Below, piece after piece: positions 7,356 to 24,678 of a stretch of 64,000 nucleotides of DNA. A program made the translations under genes and the position numbers. The notes beneath the pieces were generated by a model that was not told the DNA's origin, searched no databases, and worked only from the letters and a program-made list of their open reading frames with translations. The DNA is taken from NCBI RefSeq assembly GCF_038443385.1, contig NZ_CP151726.1, forward strand, positions 2,294,001-2,358,000. The letters run 5' to 3'. Source of the DNA: Stieleria varia (GTDB taxonomy: Bacteria; Planctomycetota; Planctomycetia; Pirellulales; Pirellulaceae). Position 1 is the first letter of the stretch. The number at the start of each line of letters is the position of its first letter.

Positions 7356-8552
7356 TTACGCCTCCGCCGCCTCCGCGGTTTTCAGCGACGAGCCATGCGT
7401 TCGTTTTCCTTGGCGGTACTCGAGCGGAGTGACTCCGATGTATTGACGGAATGCTTGCGACAGGGAGGCTCCGGATGCTAATCCAGATTCGGTTGCGATT
7501 GACGAAACCGATCGGTCTGTATCGAGCAACAAACGGCAAGCATGCTCGAGTCGGACGCGGCGAATCTCCACCGCAGGGCTGCGCTTCAGTAAAAGGCGAA
7601 AGCGTTGTTCGAGTCGGCGACGCGAGATGGGAAAGGCACGCGTCAAATCGGCGACGTTGATGCCTTCCGTGGCGTGGTCGCGAATGTATCGGAGAATCTC
7701 TGCGATTTCTTCGTCGCCGATGGCAAGGATTTCCGTCGAATGCCGTGATCTCACTCGCAGCGGGGCGATCCATTTGGTGCGTTTCGGCGTGGTCGCTCCA
7801 TCCATCATCCGTGAGAGTATCGTTGCCGCGGTTTCTCCGATCCGATGGCTTGCCAATTCAATGGCGGAGATCTGCGGCGATGCCACGTTGCAAAGCAACT
7901 CGTCATCGTCGCCGGAAAGAATTGCCACGTCGTCTGGAACGCGAATGCCTTCTAACGTGCAGATCTCGATCAACTGCCGAGCCGGATACGGGTCTGCGGC
8001 AAACACTCCGAGTGGTCTTGGAAGCCGAGCCAGCCATCGTTGCACGTTCGCATGATTGGTCAGCCATCCGCTCTGGTCGTCGCTGTCGGTTTGGTACAGC
8101 GCGCACTGAAATCCCTCCCGCGTCACCGTGCGAACAAAGGATTCCGATCTGACGTCGGAGTAGCGGCCAATCGGTGGAGCATAACAGGCAAAATTGGCAA
8201 TTCCATGATTGCGAAGATGGTCAAACGCGAATCGTGCGCGAGCGTTGTCGTCGGTTGCCACGCGAGCAAACCAACTTTGCTTGGGCACCATCGCCGAAAC
8301 GTCTACGACCGGCAGTTTCAGTTGTTTCACATGTCGGGTCAGCGACGTCGTTCGCAGTGATGCGATGATGCCGTCGCCTTTCCAGACCTTGGGCAATCGC
8401 AGTCGCCCCTGCGCGTCCCGGGGAGCAATCAAAACGGTCCAGCCGTTGTTTCTCGCGGCTCGGCAAACCGACTCGACCACATTGCGTCCCCATGAATCGT
8501 CGGTTTCGACAAGGATCCCTACCTGACGAATTCTGTGTCCTGAGGCTGGCAT
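7356..8552 (-). CDS. XylR-like AraC-family transcriptional regulator
   Basis: A 398-residue one-component regulator, close to the length of E. coli XylR. About residues 8-270 form a LacI/periplasmic-binding-protein-like ligand domain (RQVGILVETDDSWGRNVVES, DVAILSGDDDELLCN, SPQISAIELASHRIGE). The C-terminal ~100 residues carry two AraC helix-turn-helix motifs (VADLTRAFPISRRRLEQRF and SIATESGLASGASLSQAFRQ, then GVTPLEYR). The ATG at 8552 is preferred: the longer frame from 8606 begins inside the 97-bp repeat and adds 18 unlike residues. It is divergent from the operon beginning at 8841 and is its best candidate regulator. The ligand is unknown. Confidence 0.88.
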   Translation of the reverse strand: MPASGHRIRQVGILVETDDSWGRNVVESVCRAARNNGWTVLIAPRDAQGRLRLPKVWKGDGIIASLRTTSLTRHVKQLKLPVVDVSAMVPKQSWFARVATDDNARARFAFDHLRNHGIANFACYAPPIGRYSDVRSESFVRTVTREGFQCALYQTDSDDQSGWLTNHANVQRWLARLPRPLGVFAADPYPARQLIEICTLEGIRVPDDVAILSGDDDELLCNVASPQISAIELASHRIGETAATILSRMMDGATTPKRTKWIAPLRVRSRHSTEILAIGDEEIAEILRYIRDHATEGINVADLTRAFPISRRRLEQRFRLLLKRSPAVEIRRVRLEHACRLLLDTDRSVSSIATESGLASGASLSQAFRQYIGVTPLEYRQGKRTHGSSLKTAEAAEA

Positions 8553-8576
8553 TGGATGAACACCTGAGGCTGCGGT

Positions 8577-8673
8577 GGGACGTGCGGAAAACAGTTGTCC
8601 TGTCACTTTGCAAGAATCACGCGGAGCGATGATTGCTAAATGGATTTCGCGACAGTCATTTTTCGCACGTCGC
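8577..8673. repeat. 97-bp palindromic repeat, copy 2
   Basis: Second copy of the element at 4786-4882, with the same length, the same gggacgtgcg start and the same core aatcacgcggagcgatgatt. The last bases differ slightly (cgcacgtcgc). It lies 24 bases upstream of the XylR-like start codon, so it is part of that gene's leader or promoter region. The two copies bracket the LRR and regulator genes. Confidence 0.85.
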
Positions 8674-8840: not shown

Positions 8841-9899
8841 ATGAAGTACGAGCCGTCGGCACTGAGCAACTACCGTCGAATCGTTTTGTTGACGGATGGG
8901 TATTCGACGCCGTTTCTTGCGAAGACGGCGATCAATCTGTTGCGATATCGTTGCGACGATATCGCAGCGGTGATTGATCGTGAATTTTCGGGACAGGATG
9001 CGTTCGATGTGTTTGGGACGGGGGCGGGGGTTCCCGTCCTCGATGGCGTGCCCGACGATGCTGACTCCGTGTTCATCGGCATCGCACCTCCCGGAGGAAA
9101 GCTTCCCGAGTCGTGGCGAGACGTCATTTGTGACGCTCTGCGGCGAGGGATCGACGTTGTCTCTGGCCTCCATGATTTCCTTTCGGATAATCCTGAGTTT
9201 GTCTCGCTTTCTGAGGCTCATGGCGGCAAGTTGATAGACGTCCGTCGGAATGTGGAGAAGCAAACGGCAACCGCCGCTGCATTTCGTGACGGATGCCTAC
9301 GGATCCATACGGTCGGTCACGATTGTAGTGTGGGCAAAATGGTGGCCACCTTTGAGGTCGAGCGAGAGCTCAAGCGGCGAGGGCTGGATGCTGTCTTTCT
9401 AGCGACCGGTCAGACAGGGATCATGATTTCCGGCGAAGGTGTCCCGATCGACTGTGTTGTCGCTGATTTTGTCAACGGAGCCGCAGAGTCGCTCGTAAGA
9501 CGCAACGAGCAGCATGACTTCGTTCTCGTTGAGGGGCAAGGCTGCATCTCGCATCCCAGTTTCTCGGCGGTAACGCTTGGCTTATTGCATGGCTGTGCAC
9601 CACACGGCCTGATCTATTGTTATGAGGTGGGACGCGAGCAAGTCAAAGGGCTTGACGGGGTGCCGCTGTTGCCGATGCGACGACTGATCCAAGCCTATGA
9701 GATGGCTGCATCTCTGCGACATCCATGTTCAGTCATTGGCATCGCGATGAACAGCCGTCAATTGAATGAGTCAGAGGCTCAGTCAGAACGCGAGCGTGTC
9801 TCGCAAGAGTTTGGATTGCCGGTGTGCGACGTGTATCGTGATGGTGCCGGCGTGCTGGCTGATGCCGTTGTCCAACTGAGGCAGGAGGTGATCGGGTGA
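8841..9899 (+). CDS. dgcN: DUF1611 P-loop protein, DgcN-like D-glutamate N-acetyltransferase
   Basis: A 352-residue DUF1611 family protein. The N-terminal ~130 residues form a Rossmann-like domain ([20 protein letters not shown]). The C-terminal part is a P-loop domain with a Walker-like [10 protein letters not shown] and [13 protein letters not shown]. Members paired with an enolase-superfamily racemase have been described as DgcN, which acetylates D-glutamate for conversion to N-acetyl-L-glutamate by DgcA; this gene has exactly that neighbour. The ATG at 8841 (after gagtgagaaag) is chosen over an in-frame GTG at 8829. The stop overlaps the next start by 4 bases. The family call is strong; the substrate is inferred from the pairing. 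Confidence 0.82.
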
Positions 9900-10927
9900 A
9901 GCTGCATTTACATCGTCTTGAACTGCCTTTGGAGTTTGAGTTCACGATTGCCCGCGGTTCGATATCGACACAGCCGTCGCTCGTGGTTGAACTGGAACAG
10001 CAAGGGCACCGAGGGTACGGCGAATCGACGGCCAATCCCTACTACGGGCACACATTGGATTCCATGTCCCAGTCACTGCAGTCGTGTCGTGAAACGATTG
10101 AGTCGTACGAGTTTGGGAGACCCGCTGAACTGTGGCAAATCCTGCAGAAACCTTTGGCGGACGATTCTTTCGCGTTATCCGCGTTGGACTTAGCGGCGTA
10201 CGATCTCTTTGGCAAACTCACGTCGCGACGGACGTATGAATTGCTCGATTTGAGTTGGGAGTCTGTGCCGGAATCCAGTTACACCATCGGCATCGACACG
10301 ATCGACAAGATGGTTGCAAAATTGAAGGCGCGTCCCAACTGGCGAATCTACAAGGTCAAGTTAGGAACGGATCGAGACGTCGAGATTGTTCGATCGCTCC
10401 GGCAAGTCACCTCGGCTGTTTTTCGCGTTGACGCAAACTGCGGTTGGACGGCTGAGGAGACGATCGAGAATTCACATCAATTAAAGTCTCTTGGCGTGGA
10501 GTTCATTGAACAGCCGCTTCCCGCGGATGCGTCCACAGAAGATCAACGACTGGTGTACCAGCATTCCGCCTTGCCAATCATCGCGGATGAAAGCTGTCAG
10601 ATTGAATCCGACGTCGGCAAGTGTGCCGGCCGGTTCCATGGGGTCAATGTCAAGTTGTGTAAGTGTGGAGGGCTGACGCCTGCGGTCCGAATGCTTCGCC
10701 AGGCACGGCAGTTAGGGTTGAAAACCATGTTGGGGTGTATGGTGGAAAGCACGGTGGGGATCTCCGGGGCCGCGCAATTGTCGCCATTGTTGGACTATGC
10801 TGACTTGGACGGGGCAGAGTTGTTGTCAGCGGATGCGGCAAGCGGTGTCTCGATCAACCAAGGGCGAATCGAGCTTGGTGATGGGTACGGTAGCGGGGTG
10901 GTGTTCACCGGCAATTCGCCGTATTGA
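9896..10927 (+). CDS. dgcA: Enolase-superfamily epimerase, DgcA-like N-acetyl-D-glutamate racemase
   Basis: A 343-residue member of the muconate-lactonizing/dipeptide-epimerase branch of the enolase superfamily. The capping domain is N-terminal. The barrel holds the KxK acid/base motif (K153, K155 in IYKVKLGT), metal ligands D179 (VDANCGW), E205 (IEQPLP) and D231 (ADESC), and the opposing lysine K253 ([10 protein letters not shown]). Catalytic residues are complete. The start is GTG, with AGGAGG at 9883-9888 giving good spacing; GTGA overlaps the upstream stop. L-Ala-D/L-Glu epimerase of peptidoglycan recycling is the alternative; the DgcN neighbour favours N-acetyl-Glu racemase. Either fits peptidoglycan-derived D-Glu. 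Confidence 0.85.
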
Positions 10928-10965
10928 GTTCTTTTACGCAATCAAGAATCACAAGGTGGCATTTG

Positions 10966-11964
10966 ATGGCAGTACGAACAGCGTTGTTTTTGATCGTTTG
11001 CATACCATGCCTTGTCGGCGGCCTCTGCTTTGGAGCAGAACCGCAGATGCCTTACGCGATCGTGATCCATGCCGGTGCTGGCAGCTCACCCAAGAGCGAA
11101 CAATGGATTGAAGGCAAAACGGCGGTTCTTGAGCAGGCATTGACCGCCGGGCAGGAGATGTTGAAGTCCGGAGCGACAAGTCTTGATACGGTGGAAGCCG
11201 TCGTGCGGATTCTGGAAGATTCTGCTTACTGCAACGCTGGCAAGGGGGCCGTATTCAACGCGGCGGGAACTCACGAGCTGGACGCGACGATCATGGATGG
11301 TCGTGATCGATCCACGGGAGCGGTGGGCGGCGTCACAACCATCAAGAACCCCATCTCGCTTGCTCGACGGGTGATGACTCACACCGAACACGTGCTGCTG
11401 GTCGCCGGTGGGGCAGAACAGTTTGCCGATCAATTCGCGGACGACGTGATGATTGAGCGGGTCCCGAACTCGTACTTCTCCACAGACTTTCGGCGTGCTC
11501 AGTTGGATCGTATTGAGCAGCAGCAACGACAGCAGCAGCGGCAAAGTGAATCCGATTCCATGGGGACTGTCGGTTGTTGTGCGCTGGACACCCATGGCAG
11601 TCTTGCCGCCGCGACTTCAACGGGAGGTCTGACCAACAAGCGGTTTGGTCGACTTGGCGATTCTCCCATCGCAGGGGCCGGCACTTATGCAGACGATCAA
11701 ACCTGCGCGGTGTCCTGCACGGGAATCGGGGAAGACTTCATTCGCAATGGTGTGGCTCGCGACGTCTCCGCGCGAATGTCGTACCTCGGTAATACGGCAG
11801 ACAAAGCCGTTGAGGCGATCCTGTCAAGCAAAGAGCATCCGGTTCGCGGCGGTATCATTGCAGTGAGTCACGATGGTGAGATCGTGATGCGATTCAATAC
11901 GGAATCGATGTCAAGGGCTGCAGCGGATTGGCGAGGCCGGCGCGAAGTTCACGTGACTGATTGA
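10966..11964 (+). CDS. Exported isoaspartyl peptidase / L-asparaginase (Ntn hydrolase)
   Basis: A 332-residue plant-type asparaginase, which cleaves beta-aspartyl dipeptides after self-processing. The nucleophile is T201 in [10 protein letters not shown]. Other family motifs are IHAGAG near the mature N-terminus, GKGAVFN, DATIMDG, and [19 protein letters not shown] after the cleavage site. An N-terminal hydrophobic segment ([16 protein letters not shown]) suggests export. The ATG at 10966 (preceded by aaggtgg) is preferred to a TTG at 10924 that would overlap the upstream stop. A Gln/Arg-rich linker (QQQRQQQRQ) lies before the self-cleavage site. Isoaspartyl bonds occur in some peptidoglycan cross-bridges, which fits the operon theme. 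Confidence 0.88.
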
Positions 11965-11978
11965 TAGTGAGTACTAAG

Positions 11979-14702
11979 ATGATGAATTGTCTCAGCCGGA
12001 TGCTGGCCCTATGGGCGTTGCTTTTTCTCGTCACGGCGTCGTCGGCCGCAGATCAATGGTCGATCGAGCGTCTTGCGGAAGCGAAAGATTATTCCCAGAC
12101 GATCGATACCGCGGCGGTCGTCATTCTGCAGGATGGCAAGCTCGTTGATCAATGGGGAGCGGTCGCAATGCCGCTCAACTGTCACTCCATTCGCAAAAGC
12201 CTGCTGAGTGCTATGTTTGGTCAGCATGTACAGGATGGTATTGTCGATCTCGATGAAACGCTTGGCGATCTGGGCATCGACGATAACGAGCCACCGCTGA
12301 CAGAGATCGAAAAGACGGCTACGGTTCGTGACTTGCTGATGGCCAGGTCGGGAGTCTATCACCCCGCTCTGTACGAAACCGCATCCATGGCTGCGAAACG
12401 GCCGAAGCGTGGAACGCATGCACCCGGAACGTTTTGGTACTACAACAACTGGGATTTCAACACGCTGGGGACCATCTTCCGGCAACAAACGGGACGTGAC
12501 TTGTTCGACGAGTTCAACTCCAGGATCGCCGAGCCGCTCGGAATGCTCGATTTTCGTCCCGGGAGAGACACGGAGTACGTGTCCGGAAAAGATTCGATCC
12601 ACCGTGCCTATCCGTTTCAATTGAGCGCCAGGGATCTGGCAAGATTCGGACAACTGATGCTTCAGAACGGTCGATGGAACGGACAGCAGCTCGTTCCCGA
12701 AACTTGGGTTCGTGAAAGCACGCAGTCCTACTCGGATGCCGGAAAATCCGGTGGATACGGATACATGTGGTGGGTGGCGGTCGATGGTGAGCACCTGCCT
12801 GGCGTGACGTTGCCTGCGGGGAGTTACTCCGGTCGCGGCTATCGCGGCCATTACCTTGTGATCATCCCCGAATGGAACTTGGTGGTTTGCCACCGCGTCA
12901 ACACACACCAATCAGGCACGGTGGTTTCCAGCAGTCAGTTTGGCAAGTTGTTGTCATTGATCCTCGCAGCAAGAACCGGCACGACAGAAATTGCCTCCAA
13001 CGACAGCAAAGAACTTCCCAAGGCCAGTGAATACAGCATTATCATCCGCAATGGTGAAATCATCGACGGTACGGGGCGGAACCGTTTTTCAGCGGATGTA
13101 GGAATCGTGGCAGATCGCATCGCTGAAATCGGAGATCTTTCCGATGCGACTGCGGATCGAATCATCGATGCCACCGGACAGATTGTTTGCCCAGGCTTCA
13201 TTGACTTGCACAGCCACGCCGAGGAAGGCTTGGTTCATCGTGATCCCGCAAGACGCAGTGCTCCCAACTTGATCACGCAAGGGATCACAACGGTCGTGGT
13301 AAACCAGGACGGCGATGGACCGCTCGATATGAAAAGTCAGCGTGAGTCGATGCAGCAATCGGGAATCGGATTGAACGTGGTCCAAGCTCTCGGTCACGGC
13401 ACCCTGCGTCGCAAAGTCCTCGGCGACGACTATCAACGTCCCGCATCGCCCGAGGAAATCGAAACGATGCAGGGATTGCTACGTTCCGCGTTAAAGGAAC
13501 GCGTTTTTGGAATGTCTGCCGGGCTGGAGTATGTGCCCGGCAGATGGAGCACTGCGCGAGAGATGCATTCACTGGCGCAGACGATCAAGGAGTTTGATGG
13601 TGTCTACATCGTTCACGAACGTAGTTCGGGCACCCGACCGATGTGGTTTTTGCCGAGTCGTGATTCACACGAGCAGCCATCGATGGTGGACAACATTCGA
13701 GAGTTGATCGCGGTTGCCGCCGACACGAGGGTGACGACTGTGGCGACGCACATCAAGGCTCGCGGCACAGATTTCTGGGGATCGAGCGAGACCATCAATT
13801 CGATGATCCGAAAGGCGCGCGAAGAAGGGCTTCCGCTATTTGCGGATCAATATCCATACAACACAAGCGGGTCCGACGGTCGTATCGTTTTGATTCCCGA
13901 TTGGGTGTTCGCCAAAGAGGCGGGCGAACGAGACGAACAGCGCGAAGAGTCCGACAACGCCGATTCAAAGCGTGACTTCGCCAAACAGCTTGAGAGTGTT
14001 CTGCAGGACGAGCAGCTGACCTCGCATCTTCGCAAGGATGTCGAATACGAAATCACTCGTCGCGGAGGTGCTGAGAAAATCCTGATCATCCAGTCCAATG
14101 AGGCGGGGATCGCAGGCAAGACACTCGGCGAGTATGCCGAGATGCATCAAGAAGAACCGGTGGATGCAGTTTTTCGACTTCAGCTCATGGGGGATCGCCA
14201 TCGTCGCGGTGGCGCTCAGTTGCGGGCATTCTCGATGGATGAAGCGGACGTCGAAGCATTCGCCGCAACGGCTTGGACGGCTACCTCCAGTGATGCCGGG
14301 ATCGCACTTCCTCATGACGGTCCGGTTCACCCGCGGTTTTACGGAGCGTTTCCACGAAAGATCCGGCATTACGCCATCGATCGGGGTTTGATGTCTGTGG
14401 AGGAAGCGGTGCGAGTTTCCACCTCGCTACCGGCAATGATTCTTGGCCTTATCGACCGAGGCGAATTGAAGACCGGGTTTGTCGCGGATTTGGTCGTGTT
14501 TGATCCGGAAACCGTTCGTGATCGCTCGGATGCCTTTCATCCACATCGATTTGCCGAAGGGATCAGCTACGTATTGATCAACGGTTCGTTGTCCGTCGAT
14601 CATCAGCAGTGGTATGGCAACCTGTCGGGGCAAGTCATTTTGAAAAGCCAACGCGATCCAGTGAAACACCCAAACTCTGACGATGGGAACACACAGCCAT
14701 GA
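11979..14702 (+). CDS. Fusion of class C beta-lactamase-like hydrolase and D-aminoacylase
   Basis: A 907-residue two-domain exported protein. The signal peptide is [17 protein letters not shown], then ASSAA. Residues ~30-330 form a serine beta-lactamase/penicillin-binding fold with S70xxK73 (HSIRKS) and a YYNN motif near residue 154. Residues ~345-890 are an N-acyl-D-amino-acid deacylase-type amidohydrolase: [20 protein letters not shown], metal-binding H411 and H413 in [19 protein letters not shown], and the C-terminal [20 protein letters not shown]. The ATG at 11979 lies 14 bases after the upstream stop; a TTG at 11961 is possible. D-aminoacylases release D-amino acids from N-acyl forms, matching the DgcN/DgcA genes. 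The exact substrate is unknown. Confidence 0.88.
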
Positions 14703-17700
14703 TTTGCTTCAAGCGATATTGTTTAGGAACAATGATCCATTTACTGGCGCACGTGGTTCCATTCGCAACGGCGCACTTGGTAATGGGATTCGCCAGAATT
14801 CCTTTCGGGCAGGATTTCTGGCGAAATCCAATACGCCATCCATTGATAATACGCTGCTTACTTTGCCCATTGGTTTTCACAGCTTTGCTCGGTCTGGCGA
14901 CGGCGGCGGCACAGGATACCGCAGCGAACACAATCATTGCGGCAAAGGAAATTGATCAACAAGACATTGATCAACTCGTACGCAACTACATGGACCGACA
15001 CGGCGTGCCTGGTATGTCAATCGCCGTCGCCTCGCAGAACGAATTGGTTTATGCAAAGGGATTCGGGTTGGCCGATGTTGAGCATTCGGTTGAGGCAACG
15101 GAGACGACGCGTTACCGAACGGCTTCCATCGCCAAACCGATGACAGCCGCCGTGATTTTGTCGCTGTTGGACGAGGGTAAATTGGATTTAGACAAGTCCG
15201 TGACGTCGTATGTTTCTGGTTTTCCAGAGAAGCGATGGCCTGTTACCAGTCGGCAACTGCTGGGACATCTTGGCGGGGTTCGACATTACAAATCTTCTGC
15301 GGAATCCTCGTCGACGGAGCACTTTTTTAACCTCAAGGCCGCCTTGCGAACGTTTGCCGACGATCCGCTGATTCACGAGCCAGGCACACGGTACCGGTAT
15401 TCCTCTTTTGGTTACAACCTGCTCGGAAACGTGGCCGAGAGTGCCGGCGGGAACGACTTCATCAGCTTGCTGCATGAATATGTTCTTGCTCCATCCGGCA
15501 TGACACACACGGTCGCCGACGACACCTTTGCGGTGATTCCCGGTCGAGCACGTGGATACTTGCGGGCAACGCCATCCTATCTCACGACGTTGCCCGATGA
15601 TCACAGTCTGATCGAAGGTGAGTTGTACAACTCAACGCTCCACGATACGAGCATGAAGATTCCGGGGGGCGGATTGTTGTCGACGGCGCCGGATTTGGTT
15701 CGGTTTGCCGTGGCAATGAACCGAGGTGATTTGTTGCAAAAGCCGACGGTTGACGCGATGTGGACGCGGCAGAAGACGAGCGCAGGCGAGGAGACGTCCT
15801 ATGGTCTCGGTTGGAGCGTCGGTCAAAAATCGGGACGACAAGCGGTTTGGCATGGAGGAGCCCAGTCGGGTACATCCACGGTGTTGCTGCTGTACCCAGA
15901 GACCGGGATATGCGTTGCCATCATGAGCAACCTGCAACGCTTGAGTTTGACAAGCTTGGCGGTCGCGATCGCCCAGCGGGTTGAGCCGCCCCAGTACGAT
16001 TACGAACCGGCGATCAAGAAACTGCGGGAGGCAGTGCGGCACGAAGTCGAGCAGAAAGAGCTGCCCGCGTTTTCGATTTCACTGATCGACCGTGATCACG
16101 TGGTCTGGGCAGACGGCTTTGGTTTTCAGGACACAGAGAAGAACATTCCGGCGACTGCGGAAACCGTTTACCGTGTGGGATCGGTTTCGAAGTTGTTCAC
16201 TGATATCGCTGTGCTGCAATTGGTCGAGGAAGGCAAACTGGATCTCGACGCTCCGGTAGAGCAGTATCTGCCCGATTTCAAACCCGAGGATCCCTTCGGC
16301 GTCCCGCTCACGTTGCGTCAAATGATGTCGCACCGTTCGGGCTTGGTGCGAGAGTCACCCGTCGGCAATTACTTTGATCCTGACGAACCGACTTTGGCGG
16401 CGACCGTTGCTAGTCTCAACGACACCAAGCTGGTCTACAAGCCGGAGACGAAGACAAAGTACTCCAATGCCGCGATTGCGGTGGTCGGCGCTGTACTGGA
16501 AAAGCAACTTGAGGTGTCTCATCCGCAACGTGTTCGAGACACGATTCTCCAACCGCTGGGGATGAACCAGAGCAGCTTTGTTGTGACACCTGCTGTCGAA
16601 CCAAAGCTCGCGACTGGCTGGATGCGGACCTATGACGGTCGCCGATTTGAGGCGCCAACGTTTTTGCTGGGTACCGGGCCGGCGGGAAACATGTATTCCA
16701 GCGTGTTGGACCTGTCCAAGTTCGTGTCGTGTCTTTTTGACGAAGGCCGAACCGAAGACGGAATGATCTTGAAGCCGGAGTCGCTGGAGCTGATGGTGAC
16801 ACCTATCAAAGATTCCGTCGGCAAAGCACAGGGATTCGGACTGGGGTTCCATGTTCAGCAACTGGATGGTTACACCAAGATCGGTCATGGCGGGGCGGTC
16901 TATGGTTTTTCAACGCAGTTGGAGGCACTTAGGGAACGTCAGTTGGGAGTCGCTGCAGCGTCATCCCTGGATGGGACCAACGGCGTGGTGCGTCGACTTG
17001 CCGATTATGCTCTGCGATTGATGGTCGCGATTCAGGACGGTGCGCCGTTGCCCGAGTATCGCACAACCGTCCCGATTCCTGGGCAGCGCGCGGCAAAACT
17101 TGTCGGACGATATCGCGAATTGGATGGCGATGGATTCGCACGGATTTGCGAACTCAACAGAGATGTTTTCCTGCAGCACGGTTCGTTTCGAAATGAGCTC
17201 CGTGCTGCAGCGGATGACGGAACCATCATCACGGATGATGAAATCGGTTTTGAAACCAAAGTTGAAATGGGTGACGATGGTCGCTTGGTCGTGGGCGATG
17301 TCACCTTCGCGAGATTGCCTGACGAACCACCGGCGGACGTTCCAGATCGCTGGCGTGGTCTCATCGGCGAGTATGGTTGGGATCACAACACGCTGTATAT
17401 CTTGGAGGAGGACGAGAATCTCTACGCATTGATCGAATGGTTTTACTATTACCCATTGCAGGAAGTCGGCGAGAATCTGTTCGAGTTTCCAGACCATGGC
17501 TTGTATCATGGCGAGGGCTTGCGCTTCACTCGGGATGAGAACGGCAATGCGGTGGCAGTCAACGCGGCAGAAGTCATTTTCAAGCGACGGGAGGTCGGCA
17601 CGAAAGACGGGGAGACCTTTCAGATCAAACCCGTGAAGCCGATTGATGACCTTCGCGCAGGCGCTTTGGCCGCCACACCTCCGGCGGAATCCGGTGACTT

Positions 17701-18265
17701 TCGCGAAACCGATCTGGTGGAATTGTCGACCTTGGATTCTGGAATCAAGTTGGACATTCGCTATGCCACGACGAACAACTTTACGGGGGCAGTGTTTTAC
17801 CAACAGCCGCGGGCTTTCATGCAACGGCCGGCCGCGGAGGCCGTCGTTCGCGCCAACGCAAAGCTAGAGACTCTTGGGCTGGGCCTGTTGATCCACGATG
17901 CCTATCGACCATGGCACGTCACGAAGATGTTTTGGGACGCGACTCCTGGTGAGTTCAAGGACTTTGTTGCGAATCCCGCCGATGGTTCACGCCACAATCG
18001 AGGCTGCGCGGTGGATTTGACGTTGTATGATCGAGCGACAGGCGAGCCGATCCAAATGGTCGCAGGATATGACGAGTTTTCCTTTCGTTCTTTTCCACTC
18101 TATCCTGGCGGAACGTCGCGGCAACGTTGGTATCGCGATCTGCTACGTCGCACGATGGAATCGGAAGGGTTTCGCGTTTTCGAATTCGAGTGGTGGCATT
18201 TCGACTTCGGTGATTGGCGACGCTACCGCATCGGCAACGCCACGTTTGAGGAATTGCAGCCGTGA
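14699..18265 (+). CDS. Tripartite protein: two serine hydrolase domains plus VanX-type D-Ala-D-Ala dipeptidase
   Basis: A 1188-residue protein whose ATGA start overlaps the upstream stop. A long N-terminus ends in a hydrophobic export-type segment (about residues 48-70). Domain 1 (~80-425) is beta-lactamase-like: S143xxK146 (TASIAKP), YSSFGYN, HGGAQSG. Domain 2 (~440-780) is a second copy: S495xxK498 (GSVSKLF), YSNAAIA, HGGAVYG. A spacer with lipocalin-like or DUF3471-like strands follows. Domain 3 (~1005-1188) is a M15D dipeptidase with [10 protein letters not shown] (H1099, D1106) and EWWH (E1164, H1167), the zinc and catalytic residues of VanX. This would cleave D-Ala-D-Ala. Such a three-part fusion is unusual; VanX proteins are usually single-domain (~200 residues). 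Confidence 0.9.
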
Positions 18266-18898: not shown

Positions 18899-20959
18899 TC
18901 ACAGCAAGTCTGCATCGACATATCGAATGTGAACAACGCCCAACAGATTTCCAGGCTTGATACCTTTGTAGGTTCTGATGTTGCGGTCGAGCGTTTGTCC
19001 AGCGGCGGTTCCCAAGGCACGCGAGTCGGCTTTCGGCGCGTAAAACGCGACCGTGATCAGTCCGATTTGATCTGAGTAACCGCGTTGGTTAGCGAGAGAT
19101 TCCGCTGCATTGACAACGGTGAACTCTCGGACCTGGCCGCCGACGCCGGATTTTGTCATGAACCCGAGTAAATCCCATTTCGGAATTTTACCGGCCACTT
19201 CTGGACCATTTGGATCGAGCAGTCTTGGGACGGCATCGTTGAGATGAGTGATGGGTTGTCCCCACACGTCGATGTCGTTATCCGATTCAGCGACTTTCAT
19301 GCCGGTGTCCAAGCCATCGACTAGGATTCTCGCAAGCGCGACGGTGCCACTTTTGTTGTGCAAACGGATTGCGTACCGGTCTCCTTTTTTCACACCGACG
19401 AAACAATCGTTGCCGCGAAACACGGGCGGTCGCACCGTTCCATTGACGCGAATTTCCACATCAAAACGACTCTTGAATTCTGGATCCAGTAAAGCATGAG
19501 CGCCCTGGCTTCGACGATCAGCCGCGGTGATCACTTGCTCGGTCTCCGATTCGCTCGACCGATTGATTGAGGTCAAAACACGTTGTCGGTCCTCTGGACG
19601 AATCACGACGCTGTAACCGAGCATCGCCCAGTCATTTTCGCTCAATGCCGCAGTTCCGCCGGTGATTCCGATCACGTCACCGGTGGTCGTTTCTTTGAGT
19701 TCGACCTGTAGTCTCAAGAATGCGCCCTGACGTCCCTTGATCGATCCCATCGCGACCGCGGGCATGTCTCCAACGCTCTTGGACAGACTCCGCAATCTCG
19801 GTGTGGATGAGATCGCCGACACCTCAAACCCGCCGTCTTGCAGGATCGCATGACGGAGTTGGTCACGATTGACGATGCGAAACGAAGCGTCCTGGCTGGC
19901 GGAGATCAACTGTCGTTCCAATTCATCGCCACAAAACTTGCCGACCAAACCGAATTGACCACCCAACACTTCTTGCAAGCGGCTGTCATCGGTGAATTCG
20001 AGCACACCTGCGCGGCGATACTTGTGCTCATCCAATAGGTCCGCAACGTGCTCGGCCATGTTGGCTAAAAGGGGACGCAGCGGCTGTGGCTTGAGACGAA
20101 CCACGTCAGGCACGCCAATCACACGTGGTCCAACAATTCGAACCGGCGTTTGGCGATTGGGAAAACGAACCTTGGCTGTATGGGCAACGCGCCGACTGAC
20201 GTAGCTGTGGAGCTCATCAATATCAACACTGCCGTTGCTGTCTCGATCCGCGTGCCCCTTCAATCCTTCGGTCAACCAGTAGCTGTAGAGTGAACGTCGT
20301 TTGTCTTGCCAAATCACGCTGACTTGATCTTCGCTACAACTGGCCAGCGTGACCACACCATCAACAGCTTTGAAGAGCCGCCCCATTTCGTCCGGGGAGA
20401 GTGAGTCGGTGTTGGGTTCAGAATTCTCGCTGCCGGCGTGGCAGGCATCCAAGATCAGGAGTTTCAAGACGGCTGAGCATCCCGCAATTCGTTCTCGCAA
20501 CCAATCGACACTGATCCCCGTCTCGGAAGGTTTCGTTCGGTCAAAATCCAGCGGCGCCAGGTACATCAGACCGTCATCGTCACGAAAACCATGACCACTG
20601 AAAAAGACCAAGACCATGTCGTCTGCTCCGACTCGCTCCAACCAAGCAGGAATCCGTCGGGTCAAGGTTTCGTGCAGCGGTTGCGAGTCTGGTCCCGGTC
20701 CGAAGTCCGTGATCTCAAGGATGTGATCCGGGGCCACTCCGCCGTAGGCTATGAGCGTTTCGCGGAGGCACTGGGCATCGTCGACGGTGTATTCCAACGG
20801 GCTGACCTGCTGATAATCTTGCACGCCGATCAGCAAAGCCCACGTCTCGCCTGCCGCCAGCGTTCCTGCAGCTAGAGTCACTGTGGCCAACCAAACGCCA
20901 AAAGCAGCTGACGCTTTCGTTGCCAGTCGAGCGCGACCAAACACTCTCTTTTGGTCCAT
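18899..20959 (-). CDS. Secreted caspase-fold (C14) peptidase
   Basis: A 686-residue protein with an N-terminal signal sequence (GVWLATVTLAAGTLAAG). Residues ~40-260 are a caspase/metacaspase p20 domain: ALLIGVQDYQ, catalytic H123 in FFSGHGFRD and C173 in LILDACHAGS, then GVVTLASCSEDQVS. The dyad is intact. The remaining ~400 residues hold no recognised enzyme; a part near 530-600 (EIRVNGTVRPPVFRGNDCFV) resembles the DUF4384 domain often attached to bacterial caspases. It is divergent from a second caspase-fold gene starting at 21199, with a 239-bp shared promoter region. Substrates are unknown; bacterial orthocaspases usually cleave after basic residues. Confidence 0.86.
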   Translation of the reverse strand: MDQKRVFGRARLATKASAAFGVWLATVTLAAGTLAAGETWALLIGVQDYQQVSPLEYTVDDAQCLRETLIAYGGVAPDHILEITDFGPGPDSQPLHETLTRRIPAWLERVGADDMVLVFFSGHGFRDDDGLMYLAPLDFDRTKPSETGISVDWLRERIAGCSAVLKLLILDACHAGSENSEPNTDSLSPDEMGRLFKAVDGVVTLASCSEDQVSVIWQDKRRSLYSYWLTEGLKGHADRDSNGSVDIDELHSYVSRRVAHTAKVRFPNRQTPVRIVGPRVIGVPDVVRLKPQPLRPLLANMAEHVADLLDEHKYRRAGVLEFTDDSRLQEVLGGQFGLVGKFCGDELERQLISASQDASFRIVNRDQLRHAILQDGGFEVSAISSTPRLRSLSKSVGDMPAVAMGSIKGRQGAFLRLQVELKETTTGDVIGITGGTAALSENDWAMLGYSVVIRPEDRQRVLTSINRSSESETEQVITAADRRSQGAHALLDPEFKSRFDVEIRVNGTVRPPVFRGNDCFVGVKKGDRYAIRLHNKSGTVALARILVDGLDTGMKVAESDNDIDVWGQPITHLNDAVPRLLDPNGPEVAGKIPKWDLLGFMTKSGVGGQVREFTVVNAAESLANQRGYSDQIGLITVAFYAPKADSRALGTAAGQTLDRNIRTYKGIKPGNLLGVVHIRYVDADLL

Positions 20960-21198
20960 CCAAATGATCCCAATGGGTTCTTCGGGGCGTGAAATAAGCC
21001 ATCAATGGCGGCTGCGCCAGCCACAACATGGTGATCCGATTCCAAGAACAATACAACGTTCGCACAATGAGACATTGTAAATCGGGCAAGCCCCACGGAA
21101 AGAACGGAGATCTGCTAGAAATCTTCCTAGCTCAGAAAGATTTTTTGGTTTCAATCGTTTCCCAAAGGAAATGTTTCCACCCCTTGAAGTACCGCTCC

Positions 21199-24100
21199 AT
21201 GATTGTTGAAAAGCAATTCCGATCAAACGTCCTCGTTCGGGGCGTTGTTTCCGTTTTCTTGATGTTGCTCTGGTCGTCGGTGGTCTCCGGTCAACAACCG
21301 GCCAGTATCACGATTCAGACCAGCAGTGATGCGAAAATCAGTGTCAACGGAAAGGGCTACGGGACGTCGCGAAAACTGAATTTCAAAGACATGGCCACGG
21401 ACGCGGACTTCGAGTACCGAGTCCGGGCGACGTTTGAGAACGGTCAAGTTCAAGAGCGTCGCCTTTTTCTGGCCGGAGGCCGACACGCGGTGGTTGACTT
21501 TCGCTCGTCCCCGGAACTGGTTCCACAACCGGGCGGCAACTATAACGCGATCGTTAGCCCGAGTGGAAAATACATTCTGTACGAACGCGACAACACGGCA
21601 GTTTTGCGTGACGCTGAATCTGGATTGGTCCTCCGCGAGTATCGGGCTCATTCAAAACGATTGGAGGGCTTCGCCTTCAGCTCCGACGAAAGCAAAGTTT
21701 ACACGGCGGGAATGGACGACCGACTCATTACGTGGGAGTTGCAGACGGGCAAAGTCCTACGCGACCTCGACGTGCCGTCATGCTACGGCTTTTGCCTTGC
21801 CGGTAACCATTCCACGGCTGTTCTGGCTACGAGCGATGATTGTCAGCTGATGGATGTGCATTCAGGACGAGTTATTCGCACCTTTGATCGTTCTGGAATG
21901 AGTTTTTATAATGCGTGGATCAGTCCGAAGGCACAATTCGTCGTAGGGCAAGGTCGGATCAGCAACGGTGCTTATGGCGGTGTGATTTGGGATGCGCGAA
22001 CCGGCGCTGAACTTCACTCGTTGGGGAGCACCGCCTATTACACGCCAGCATTCAACACAGACGAAACGCTCGTTGTTACCATCGCTGACGATGACAGACG
22101 GTTGCAGTGTCGCGAGTCTCGCTCGGGGCAATTGGTTTGGGAAGCAACAGGCAAGAGTTACTCGACCGTCGTCTACGACGCGAACAAAAATCAATTTCTA
22201 GCGGTCGGCTCGAATCGACAAGACGATGCCAAGCCGTATGACCAACGTTCCTATTGGCTTGAGGCATTCAACCTGCGATCATCGACGCCGTTATTGTCGA
22301 GATCTATGCCAGGCCACTGCGAACTCCTTAGCCCCCAGCATGATGTCGCATTGATCAACGGCAAGCGAATGAGCTTGTCGCAACTCGATGCACAATCTCC
22401 GGACGCGTATCCTGAATCGCTTCTGACCTCGACACGGCAGCCGTTCTGGCTCTCAGGAGGACGAGTTGTGCAAGACGACAAAGTCTTCCATCTCGGCACC
22501 GGGCAACTATTGCACGATTTTAATGAAGGCGGAGACAGCCGATTGTTTGTCGAATCCGTGTCAGGGGACGGCAGCCGAATTTTTTGTTTTGACAGCCGAG
22601 AAGTAGATTACAAAACAATCTATGTTTTCAGTTCGGAGACGTATCGGTTGCTGCAACGAATACGTTCTCCGTTTAAATCCCTTCATCTACGGCCCGACCA
22701 CGCAGGCTCCCGATTGGCGGCAGGGTTCACGCAGTGGTACTTCTTCGGCGTCAGCTCAAAATCGGTTTTCAATGGCGGAACGTCTGAAATCGATGATCCG
22801 AATCTTTCGCCAGATGGGAAACGAACGTACCATAGCGATCGACTCGGCGAAGTTATCTATCTCAAGGAGTTCGAAACCAAACGGGGCGTCCAGAAAAATC
22901 TTTCAACCTCTCAGTTAGAATCGCTTATCCGCGGAATCACCCCGTCGTCCGACGGCAAGTATATCGCGGTCTGCGGAACTTACCGCAATCTCGCGCGAAG
23001 AAGCGAAGAAGTCGCGACATTGTGGATCCTTGATCCACTCACACTCGCAATTCAGAAAATCATCAAGGATTCTGAAATTGACGAGTTTGGCGCAGTTGTC
23101 GTCTCCCCTGACTCCCGTCGTATCGCGTGCGTCGAAGGCTATCCGGAGAGAAGAAAGTCTGTCGTTGTCTACGATGCGGCGACGGGACGACGCCTCATGG
23201 AGACGGTCGGCCATTACCCTGGCTATTCCGATCCGCCGGCCTTCAGCCCCGATGGCAAGTTTCTGCTGACGGTTTCCGAAGCAGGGTGGGAATTCTGGGA
23301 CATCGATCGCCAAGAAAAACTCGCCACCTGGCTGAATTTTGAATCACAAGATGAGAGCGACTCAAAGAACCACTGGCTGGTGTTCACTCCCCAAGGTGCC
23401 TTTGATGGAACTTCTGTCGGAAGAAAACAGACGACCTTTCGCGTTGGTGATCGATTGAAAGTCGTTGCTGCCGACCGATTCTTTCAAGACCTCTATCGAC
23501 CAGGATTGCTGCCTCGTTTGCTTGGTGGGGAAAACATTGACGCTCCCACGGACTTTGCCCAGCAGCAAGCTCCCAAAGTCGAAATGTTATCTCCCAGTTC
23601 ACGATCCGTCGTCAATCAAAGTCAGGTGGAGATCAAGGCAAGATTCACCGACTTGGGCGGTGGCATTGCTCGGCCGTGGGTGTTTCACAACGGTTCCCGT
23701 GTTTTGGTCGACGGCAATTGGCCGGCCGACGGAAGAACGCGTGAGTTCACTTTCTCGCTCGCGCTGGTCGAAGGCGACAACTCGATCGAAGTGTTTAGTG
23801 CGAGCGAAGACAAGTCGTGGGAAAGCGACCCGGCGCAGATCGTGATTCGCCACGAGACCCCGATGGCGCAGCCGACGCTGCATTTGGTCGCGGTCGGAGT
23901 GAGTCAGTATGCTCAAGAAACGATGAACCTGAAGTTCGCGGCCATCGACGCGGATTCCATTGCCACGATCTTTGACCAACGCGGTCCTGCACTCTACGGT
24001 CAGGATCGCGTTCGAATCGTTCGCGTCAATGACCAACAGGCGACTCGCCAAGGAATCTTGACAGCGATTGACGAGGTGGCCAAGGCCTCCAATCCGCAAG

Positions 24101-24678
24101 ACACATTTGTGCTTTTCCTGGCCGGGCACGGTTCCATGGTCGGACAACGGTACTACTTTTTGCCGCACGACTTTGAAAAACAGTCCGACAACTTGGAGGA
24201 AGACATTCGCCGACAGGGACTCCCCGGTGACGAACTCAACGATGCATTGGCGTCGGTAGCGGCGCGCCGACGCGTGATGATCTACGACACTTGTCAAAGC
24301 GGCGGAGCGATTCAGTTGGCGCGAACGGCACGCAACGGACTGGCGTTTCGAGGAGCTCTGGAGCGAATGAGCCGAGCAACCGGTTCGTACATCATCGCCG
24401 CTACGTCGGCCAGCGCGGAGGCACACGAGATCGAAGACCTTGGCCACGGTGTGCTCAGCTACACACTACTTGCGGGCGCGGGAGCGGAGCAGCTCAAAGG
24501 CCCCCTGCGCAGCCAGCCGGTCGTTCCCCAGAACTCCAAAACGCTGGACGTCCGGGACTGGTTCAACTATGCCCAGGACAAGGTCCCCGGGCTGACCAAG
24601 CTTTACTTGGGTGAAGAGCAATTCGTCGAAGCCAACGCGAGTGGGAGTAATTTTCCAATCTTGCCGTTGTCGAAATAG
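21199..24678 (+). CDS. Secreted WD40-like propeller protein with C-terminal caspase domain
   Basis: A 1159-residue protein. The ATG at 21199 gives a signal peptide (VRGVVSVFLMLLWSSVVSG); upstream in-frame ATGs from 21028 are unlikely. Residues ~35-100 resemble the TIGR03000/PEGA type (ITIQTSSDAKISVNGKGYGT). Residues ~105-790 contain WD40/YVTN-like blades (FSSDESKVYTAGMDDRLITW, FSPDGKFLLTVSEAGWEFWD). The C-terminal ~270 residues are a caspase fold: H977 in LFLAGHGS and C1032 in MIYDTCQSGG. A propeller joined to a caspase suggests a sensor controlling a protease, by analogy with known WD40-caspase proteins. It shares a promoter region with the other caspase gene, so joint action is possible but not shown. 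Confidence 0.87.
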   Translation: MIVEKQFRSNVLVRGVVSVFLMLLWSSVVSGQQPASITIQTSSDAKISVNGKGYGTSRKLNFKDMATDADFEYRVRATFENGQVQERRLFLAGGRHAVVDFRSSPELVPQPGGNYNAIVSPSGKYILYERDNTAVLRDAESGLVLREYRAHSKRLEGFAFSSDESKVYTAGMDDRLITWELQTGKVLRDLDVPSCYGFCLAGNHSTAVLATSDDCQLMDVHSGRVIRTFDRSGMSFYNAWISPKAQFVVGQGRISNGAYGGVIWDARTGAELHSLGSTAYYTPAFNTDETLVVTIADDDRRLQCRESRSGQLVWEATGKSYSTVVYDANKNQFLAVGSNRQDDAKPYDQRSYWLEAFNLRSSTPLLSRSMPGHCELLSPQHDVALINGKRMSLSQLDAQSPDAYPESLLTSTRQPFWLSGGRVVQDDKVFHLGTGQLLHDFNEGGDSRLFVESVSGDGSRIFCFDSREVDYKTIYVFSSETYRLLQRIRSPFKSLHLRPDHAGSRLAAGFTQWYFFGVSSKSVFNGGTSEIDDPNLSPDGKRTYHSDRLGEVIYLKEFETKRGVQKNLSTSQLESLIRGITPSSDGKYIAVCGTYRNLARRSEEVATLWILDPLTLAIQKIIKDSEIDEFGAVVVSPDSRRIACVEGYPERRKSVVVYDAATGRRLMETVGHYPGYSDPPAFSPDGKFLLTVSEAGWEFWDIDRQEKLATWLNFESQDESDSKNHWLVFTPQGAFDGTSVGRKQTTFRVGDRLKVVAADRFFQDLYRPGLLPRLLGGENIDAPTDFAQQQAPKVEMLSPSSRSVVNQSQVEIKARFTDLGGGIARPWVFHNGSRVLVDGNWPADGRTREFTFSLALVEGDNSIEVFSASEDKSWESDPAQIVIRHETPMAQPTLHLVAVGVSQYAQETMNLKFAAIDADSIATIFDQRGPALYGQDRVRIVRVNDQQATRQGILTAIDEVAKASNPQDTFVLFLAGHGSMVGQRYYFLPHDFEKQSDNLEEDIRRQGLPGDELNDALASVAARRRVMIYDTCQSGGAIQLARTARNGLAFRGALERMSRATGSYIIAATSASAEAHEIEDLGHGVLSYTLLAGAGAEQLKGPLRSQPVVPQNSKTLDVRDWFNYAQDKVPGLTKLYLGEEQFVEANASGSNFPILPLSK

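Follow-up and report, generated by a model that had tools for sequence, protein, structure and literature searches.

The window analyzed here, a 64,000-nucleotide stretch of Stieleria varia DNA (positions 2294001-2358000 of a genome that forms one contig of 9.72 Mb), carries five consecutive plus-strand genes that probably constitute a regulated operon for the use of D-amino-acid peptides, above all the stem peptides from the walls of other bacteria. The genes encode a DUF1611 protein (gene 1), an enolase-superfamily racemase or epimerase (gene 2), an isoaspartyl peptidase (gene 3) and two large fusion hydrolases (genes 4 and 5), and a XylR-like regulator is encoded divergently from them (Table 1). 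The presence of all five open reading frames (ORFs), claimed in an earlier note on this DNA, was confirmed. The family assignments made there also stood, but the fused nature of genes 4 and 5, with three beta-lactamase (BL)-fold domains and two beta-domains, and the divergent regulator had been missed. The operon is real, conserved in variants and coherent, and it has known precedents in the DgcN-DgcA pathway and the Pab87 neighbourhood.

In the route that we infer, the serine peptidase domains (S12 or D-aminopeptidase type) in the exported products of genes 4 and 5 would trim D-Ala and other D-residues, and the fused VanX domain would then cleave D-Ala-D-Ala and like dipeptides. The isoaspartyl peptidase may open beta-linked, perhaps also other isopeptide, bonds, and the fused D-aminoacylase would release D-amino acids from their N-acyl forms, D-Glu likely included. 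D-Glu or a D-Glu dipeptide would be imported by a transporter encoded outside the operon, and the DUF1611 protein and the enolase would finally take it by way of N-acetyl-D-Glu to N-acetyl-L-Glu in the manner of DgcN and DgcA. These two enzymes form the D-glutamate pathway that Yu et al. (ISME J, 2023) are said to have described, and reportedly take D-Glu via N-acetyl-D-Glu to N-acetyl-L-Glu.

Domains and catalytic motifs of the five proteins

The gene 1 product, in which no signal peptide was seen by eye, is probably cytoplasmic. Its nearest solved chain is 7XRJ (212 bits), titled a putative epimerase/dehydratase family protein, which we take to be a DgcN; their alignment revealed a P-loop (GxDCSxGKM), ATGQTG and EGQG in both. 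Among the orthologue segments of gene 1, which were not deduplicated, 88 of 90 keep ATGQTGI and all 90 keep xEGQG. The score of gene 1 with the DgcN model NF041892 was 273.9 bits, short of the curated equivalog cut-off of 480, and gene 1 is the only PF07755 match in its own genome.

Gene 2 contains the motifs YKVKLG, DAN, EQPLP, ADES, VKLCK, DLDG and IARG. The KxK, the D-E-D metal site, the Lys, the DxD and the near-N-terminal Arg, which we take to be the functional residues of the branch of DgcA and L-Ala-D/L-Glu epimerase, are all found in it, and no fewer than 67 of 72 orthologue segments keep the Arg. Gene 2 departs from both the DgcA rows and YcjG at three motif positions (DANCGW, VKLCK and GCMVE). 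The active-site letters were considered as a discriminator between an N-acetyl-D-Glu racemase and a dipeptide epimerase and were rejected, the DxD and the Arg being common to both. The enolase tree joined long branches, so that the window protein was placed by identities and motif columns instead.

Both N-acetyl-D-Glu and L-Ala-D-Glu are possible substrates of the gene 2 product, and we favour the former because of the DUF1611 partner. It is conceivable, if doubtful, that the enolase is instead an L-Ala-D/L-Glu epimerase, that L-Ala-D-Glu is imported and that the DUF1611 protein does another step, the exported part of the route being unchanged. The nearest structure, 3IJI (234 bits; labelled muconate cycloisomerase in the structure table, and presumably a Bacteroides dipeptide epimerase), points in this direction, as does the next one, the E. 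coli L-Ala-D/L-Glu epimerase 1JPD (148 bits). The identity of gene 2 to E. coli YcjG is 36%, versus 30-34% to five DgcA-type reference enzymes, four of them annotated as such and one (Tritonibacter) not; furthermore, KCGG and GCMxE in gene 2 read as in the dipeptide epimerases 3JVA and 3RIT. An NlpC/P60 gene beside the Halorussus pair and a peptide transporter of the major facilitator superfamily (MFS) in Croceicoccus, both described below, are also consistent with a dipeptide substrate. However, the best NCBIfam match of gene 2 is the DgcA model NF042940 (231.8 bits; equivalog cut-off 400), against 169 bits with the L-Ala-D/L-Glu epimerase model PRK15129 (cut-off 343), the DxD and Arg motifs fit either activity, and the pairing with DUF1611 is the arrangement of DgcN and DgcA.

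Read by eye from the translations, the N-termini of genes 3, 4 and 5 are hydrophobic and signal-peptide-like, and those of genes 1 and 2 are without such a segment. The PF01112 match of gene 3 passes its cut-off of 27 bits by far; the solved chain 2ZAK was matched with 219 bits, and the isoaspartyl peptidase model PRK10226 (NF007589) with 246 bits, short of its cut-off of 567. The GTVGC motif was kept in 3 of 3 orthologue segments of gene 3, two of them from one locus.

The first domain of gene 4 matched 4GB7 (57 bits). For its aminoacylase part the nearest structure is the D-aminoacylase 1RJP (192 bits), followed by the N-acyl-D-glutamate deacylase 3GIP (173 bits). We assume that HxH, a metal Asp and a bridging Cys are the metal ligands of D-aminoacylase; DLHSH and SSD of gene 4 align with 1RJP and supply the HxH and the metal Asp, and the HxH was kept in 5 of 5 orthologue segments.

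PF00144 covers two stretches of gene 5 (448 bits in all). In the first BL-fold domain SxxK was kept in 21 of 21 orthologue segments, from overlapping sets that were not deduplicated. In the second domain, again without deduplication, SxSK was kept in 72 of 72 segments, YSN in 73 of 73 and HGG in 72 of 72. The nearest solved relative of this second domain is Pab87, which acts on D-amino-acid peptides and strips D-Ala from muropeptides according to the passages on it in Delfosse et al. (2009; PMC2651629).

The VanX domain of gene 5 had a single sequence match among the solved structures, 1R44 (73.5 bits), and its PF01427 score passes the gathering cut-off of 27. The HxxxxxxD and ExxH (zinc) and DxYRP motifs, presumably the functional ones of Peptidase M15, are present; orthologues vary in a few segments, and DxYRP was kept in 74 of 74 segments (not deduplicated). 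The scores with the VanX model NF033115 (85 bits; cut-off 320) and the DdpX model PRK10178 (139 bits; cut-off 176) are both short. The two beta-domains and the VanX domain were modelled together from 33 sequences. A Foldseek search with this model retrieved VanX 1R44 (E 1e-12; TM-score over target 0.75) and the D-aminopeptidase 1EI5 (E 3e-7; prob 1.00); judged from the fold, the latter match probably falls in the two beta-domains.

The earlier note had described every junction as a 4-base overlap or a gap of at most 38 bases, and for the first three this held. Genes 1 and 2 overlap by 4 bases. Gene 3 is separated from gene 2 by 38 bases when read from ATG 10966 and overlaps it by 4 when read from TTG 10924; AAGGTGG precedes the ATG, which is probably the start. 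Genes 3 and 4 overlap by 4 bases from TTG 11961 or are 14 bases apart from ATG 11979. An overlap of 4 bases between genes 4 and 5 requires ATG 14699 and is doubtful, because a dispersed repeat makes the start of gene 5 uncertain. This repeat of ~80 bases has 39 other copies in the genome with 82-96% identity, besides 5 short matches (40 of 246 candidates were scored), and is a strong hairpin as DNA (z -3.68). Elsewhere in the genome the N-terminus of gene 5 has 28 short matches, and 10 of these contain stops. A start at ATG 14699 would place the translated repeat, in frame, ahead of the signal peptide, and a start within or after the repeat (ATG 14783 or TTG 14843) would give gene 5 an ordinary signal peptide. 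In the regulator, the XylR N-terminal domain scored 24.8 bits, under its cut-off of 27.

Table 1. Features of the operon region (positions of the window)
Feature	Position	Strand	Match or remark
Divergent XylR-like regulator	7356..8606	-	Periplasmic-binding-type domain and AraC-type helix-turn-helix; PF13377 108 bits, PF12833 69.5 bits
Gene 1, DUF1611 protein, DgcN-like	8841..9899	+	PF07755 231 bits
Gene 2, enolase-superfamily racemase/epimerase	9896..10927	+	MR_MLE 102 bits; DgcA / L-Ala-D/L-Glu epimerase branch
Gene 3, isoaspartyl peptidase / type-2 asparaginase, probably exported	10966..11964 (alternative start TTG 10924)	+	PF01112 342 bits
Gene 4, probably exported fusion of BL-fold hydrolase and D-aminoacylase-type amidohydrolase	11961..14702 (ATG 11979 possible)	+	
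Gene 4, BL-fold hydrolase domain	about 12066-12905	+	PF00144 90 bits
Gene 4, D-aminoacylase / N-acyl-D-Glu deacylase-like domain	about 13005-14639	+	PF07969 (Amidohydro_3) 80 bits
Dispersed hairpin repeat, gene 4/gene 5 junction	about 14770-14848	+	
Gene 5, probably exported fusion of two BL-fold domains, two beta-domains and VanX-type dipeptidase	14699..18265, start uncertain	+	
Gene 5, first BL-fold domain, SIAK motif	14966..15940	+	LACTB 7V21 131 bits
Gene 5, second BL-fold domain, SVSK/YSN/HGG	15986..16978	+	Pab87 2QMI 148 bits
Gene 5, two small beta-domains	17039..17600	+	Model pLDDT 90
Gene 5, VanX/DdpX-type D-Ala-D-Ala dipeptidase domain	17705..18214	+	PF01427 118 bits

Just downstream of the operon lie two divergent ORFs (18899-20959, minus strand, and 21028-24678, plus strand) that look caspase-like by eye, one of them with WD40-type repeats.

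Recurrence of the gene set in planctomycetes and other lineages

The planctomycete family was surveyed in 149 genomes. A DUF1611 match at E <=1e-20 was found in 114 of them; a few of these have nothing closer than a remote homologue (about 31-34% identity). Neighbourhoods were read by domain mapping, an ORF-cluster survey having missed DUF1611 in some regions, and 80 DUF1611 places from 75 genomes, mostly best matches, were mapped in this way. In 57 of the 78 loci with room for it, an enolase follows DUF1611 directly, and in 12 of the 78 a divergent XylR-like homologue lies upstream.

The fusion of the gene 5 type (second BL-fold domain, beta-domains and VanX; E below 1e-90) was counted by hand, some fragments included, in 41 of the 149 genomes, and a scan of named genomes gave 42 fusion loci, nearly all from Planctomycetota; Stieleria tagensis and Roseiconus nitratireducens are among the carriers. 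We defined a variant of the set by DUF1611 and/or enolase together with such a fusion in one locus, an arrangement that the window itself shows. After removal of duplicates there were 62 distinct fusion loci besides the window, 54 of them with at least 2.5 kb of upstream sequence; L254-L258 and L252 (second BL-fold domain not in view) and fragments in genomes G017, G082 and G139 were left out of this count. A DUF1611 and/or enolase sequence lies within 6 kb upstream of the fusion in 18 of these 54 other planctomycete loci. By our own estimate, made with no computed control, two given genes of a ~7.5 Mb genome fall within 6 kb of each other by chance in ~1/1000 of cases, and on that estimate the adjacency exceeds chance. 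A tree of the fusion proteins, with 61 members of which 52 carry a label, requires a minimum of 9 changes of the adjacency; it comes from a quick search with no shuffled-label control, and 20 of its 58 inner branches have support below 80. The adjacency spans more than one clade, and repeated gain and repeated loss are indistinguishable on this tree. Across genomes, having the fusion is only weakly associated with having DUF1611 (37/41 versus 77/108 genomes, p 0.017; hand counts, with fragments and remote DUF1611 homologues scored as present).

Several of these loci resemble the window closely. L227 and L249 have DUF1611, enolase, BL-aminoacylase and BL-BL-VanX in the window order, without the isoaspartyl peptidase, and L253 has the same order until the contig ends before VanX; L225 and L232 show the BL-aminoacylase-BL-BL-VanX part, the view stopping before the position of DUF1611. 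Among the other mapped loci, all five families recur together in L221 alone, as five ORFs in a row: DUF1611 (357 residues), enolase (354), isoaspartyl peptidase (341), a BL-VanX fusion (801) and an aminoacylase-BL fusion (946). Relative to the window, its last two genes are swapped and the domain order of the aminoacylase gene is reversed. This reversed order also adjoins the DUF1611-enolase pair in L050, L055 and L056. In the S. varia genome itself there is a second aminoacylase-type gene, fused to a BL-fold domain in the reversed order (G000:C1:44388-47234; L172 8491-11322). As to the co-occurrence of the five families, for which the earlier note suggested a search in other Pirellulaceae, variants were found, and the exact five-gene set was not supported as a common unit. 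A phylum-wide search with gene 4 matched 21 of 392 genomes at E <=1e-80, including its own, and in another planctomycete family 3 of 25 short loci (L293, L299 and L300) have an aminoacylase homologue of 34% identity immediately ahead of DUF1611-enolase, two of these three also showing a divergent XylR-like gene.

Related clusters occur in other lineages. On plasmids, 102 records had DUF1611 matches; of the 40 listed, 13 were picked by hand and read, and the plasmid gene tables are incomplete. Both DUF1611 and a gene of the DgcA/dipeptide-epimerase type were present in 8 annotated regions, and peptide-handling genes lie near in 6 of the 8. In Pantoea the public annotation reads dgcN-dgcA, peptide ATP-binding cassette (ABC) transporter genes, P1 and M55; Klebsiella has the peptide ABC genes as in Pantoea, where its view ends, so that P1 and M55 were seen in Pantoea only. 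Pseudoalteromonas has an aminoacylase homologue (33%), M14, NhaC, dgcR, dgcN and dgcA. Sphingobium and Croceicoccus each have two serine hydrolases and a TonB receptor. Sphingobium also has a dipeptidase, and in Croceicoccus the order is BL, epimerase, peptide MFS transporter, TonB receptor, DUF1611, a hypothetical gene, BL and an aminoacylase homologue (30%); in both, the epimerase lies a few kb from DUF1611. The archaeon Halorussus shows the order NlpC/P60-DUF1611-epimerase, and the opposite strand there carries dacB and dipeptide ABC genes. Haloarchaea have no peptidoglycan of their own, and this cluster therefore points to foreign wall peptides. Two further regions had annotation of little use; in one of them, from Tritonibacter, an enolase homologue follows DUF1611, and no homologue of the window hydrolases was found. 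Vibrio lentus and Ruegeria (L274 and L275) show a second kind of DUF1611-racemase pair, a remote DUF1611 followed by a pyridoxal-phosphate alanine/ornithine racemase-type gene.

In an acidobacterium (L254 9887-14074) a single protein of 1395 residues joins VanX, PBP4 (S13) and aminoacylase domains. As PBP4 has peptidoglycan cross-links for its substrate, the fusion connects VanX and D-aminoacylase with wall peptides. Next to it lie a TonB-receptor-like protein, an amino-acid permease, a gene of the enolase superfamily and two BL-fold genes. In L258, genes of the aminoacylase and VanX types overlap by 4 bases. These similar sets in other phyla, together with the recurrent variants in planctomycetes, support the earlier proposal that the genes act as one unit on D-amino-acid peptides.

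Source of the peptides and weight of the contrary evidence

It is likelier, as far as gene content can tell, that the peptides are foreign than that the operon recycles the cell's own wall, and scavenging is favoured because the MurI and MurD models do not pass their cut-offs in the family. Neither model exceeded its cut-off in any of the 149 family genomes (22 weak matches for MurI, 107 for MurD), and neither had a match in the S. varia genome; among 14 control genomes MurI matched 10 and MurD 12 (8 and 10 over cut-off). The benefit from own-wall recycling suggested by the earlier note is thus not supported. We regard own-wall recycling as improbable, even though peptidoglycan components are reported in Rhodopirellula baltica in the parts of PMC4432640 and PMC5147048 that concern them. 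From that report it follows that wall synthesis there may use divergent enzymes; the S. varia genome has two Mur_ligase_M matches, and such divergent enzymes could escape the MurI and MurD models.

A number of observations weigh against a dedicated operon for D-amino-acid peptides. None of the displayed NCBIfam matches attains its cut-off, the gene 4 aminoacylase has an Asp where the 1RJP alignment has the bridging Cys of D-aminoacylase, and the operon is without a transporter gene. Homologues of the window hydrolases (gene 3-5 domains) lie downstream of just 8 of the 57 DUF1611-enolase pairs; at a ninth (L083) a BL-fold gene of 25% identity lies upstream. Neither DUF1611 nor enolase was found within 6 kb upstream in 36 of the 54 fusion loci, one of which (L164) has a 29% enolase downstream of the fusion. 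Among the other 18, L218 has the pair in the opposite orientation and L156 has remnants only. A gene 3 homologue is linked in just 2 other distinct mapped loci, L221 and L068 (the same as L231, from Roseiconus). Around wider-phylum aminoacylase homologues, 7 of 8 larger regions show neither DUF1611 nor enolase, and the eighth, L302, has DUF1611 and no enolase. Two Vibrio dgcN-dgcA pairs have no adjoining peptidase among the listed genes, one of these regions having a serine hydrolase about 6 kb upstream of the pair, and a Sinorhizobium DUF1611 locus has no genes of this kind.

Two of these loci show decay or disruption. In L156 (6585-7606, genome G055) a short fragment of DUF1611 and a disrupted enolase precede a two-BL-VanX fusion, and a second DUF1611 lies elsewhere in the genome. 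In L302 (5330-7584, genome G452) an interruption of about 1.3 kb splits the gene 4 homologue within its first domain, and no enolase stands next to DUF1611.

The same counts could be read to mean that unrelated secreted hydrolases simply lie behind a conserved two-gene DUF1611-enolase operon, the hydrolase homologues being missing downstream of 49 of the 57 family pairs and the upstream pair from the 36 fusion loci. We consider such a loose cluster unlikely, since the same-strand association appears at several separate places on the tree, and like enzymes lie near the pair in the other phyla (Pseudoalteromonas, Sphingobium, Croceicoccus and Halorussus). According to a further reading, of quite low probability, DUF1611-enolase would be more than catabolic: with a D-aminoacylase it would run from N-acetyl-L-Glu towards D-Glu and so supply the cell-wall D-Glu of planctomycetes in which the MurI model has no match over cut-off, and the exported fusions would harvest D-Glu from foreign walls. 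A role in defence against D-amino-acid peptide antibiotics or in their detoxification, which could be suspected from the inferred export and from the VanX and class-C-like model matches (all short of cut-off), is very improbable and was set aside because no VanH/VanA-like partner stands among the five genes and the regulator and because the partners (DUF1611, enolase and D-aminoacylase) are catabolic.

Relation to known systems

Marine organic matter includes a large pool of D-amino-acid peptides from bacterial walls that is used slowly, and an operon for the use of foreign stem peptides would offer planctomycetes a concrete route into it. A kind of locus that recurs across several phyla unites DUF1611, D-aminoacylase, VanX-type and S12 peptidases, and a gene labelled VanX or beta-lactamase in such a genome may be a sign of nutrition instead of drug resistance.

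At the level of titles and listings, the literature yielded no account of the planctomycete fusion operon, subscription papers being mostly outside this scope. The claim of novelty made for the five activities was nevertheless overstated. A set of D-peptidase, D-aminoacylase and dipeptide transporter has been proposed for bacterial debris in Pyrococcus abyssi, in the part of Delfosse et al. (2009; PMC2651629) that deals with the gene neighbourhood, and an annotated dgcN-dgcA-transporter-P1-M55 operon also precedes the present one. Discussions of dgcN are found in mSystems (2025) and of DgcN-DgcA in Microbiol Spectr (2024).

Like the DgcN-DgcA pathway, the window has DUF1611 followed by an enolase-superfamily enzyme, and its P-loop, ATGQTG and EGQG are shared with the nearest solved DUF1611 chains. 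It differs in falling under both NCBIfam cut-offs, in the 30-34% identity of its enolase and the three divergent motif places, and in having a XylR-like rather than a LysR regulator, together with the fused hydrolases. The E. coli ycjG-mpaA-mppA region has a homologous L-Ala-D/L-Glu epimerase near murein-peptide genes, but the 11 features shown there include neither DUF1611 nor D-aminoacylase nor VanX. In the Pab87 neighbourhood, as far as the cited part of that paper extends, a dipeptide ABC transporter is present and neither DUF1611/enolase, VanX nor fusions are named; what it shares with the window is a D-peptidase of the S12 type close to a D-aminoacylase, a pairing proposed for D-amino-acid cell debris. 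The plasmid operon of Pantoea and Klebsiella differs in its internal transporter, its other peptidase families and the lack of fusion enzymes among the listed genes, and agrees with the window in joining a DgcN-DgcA pair to peptide-handling genes.

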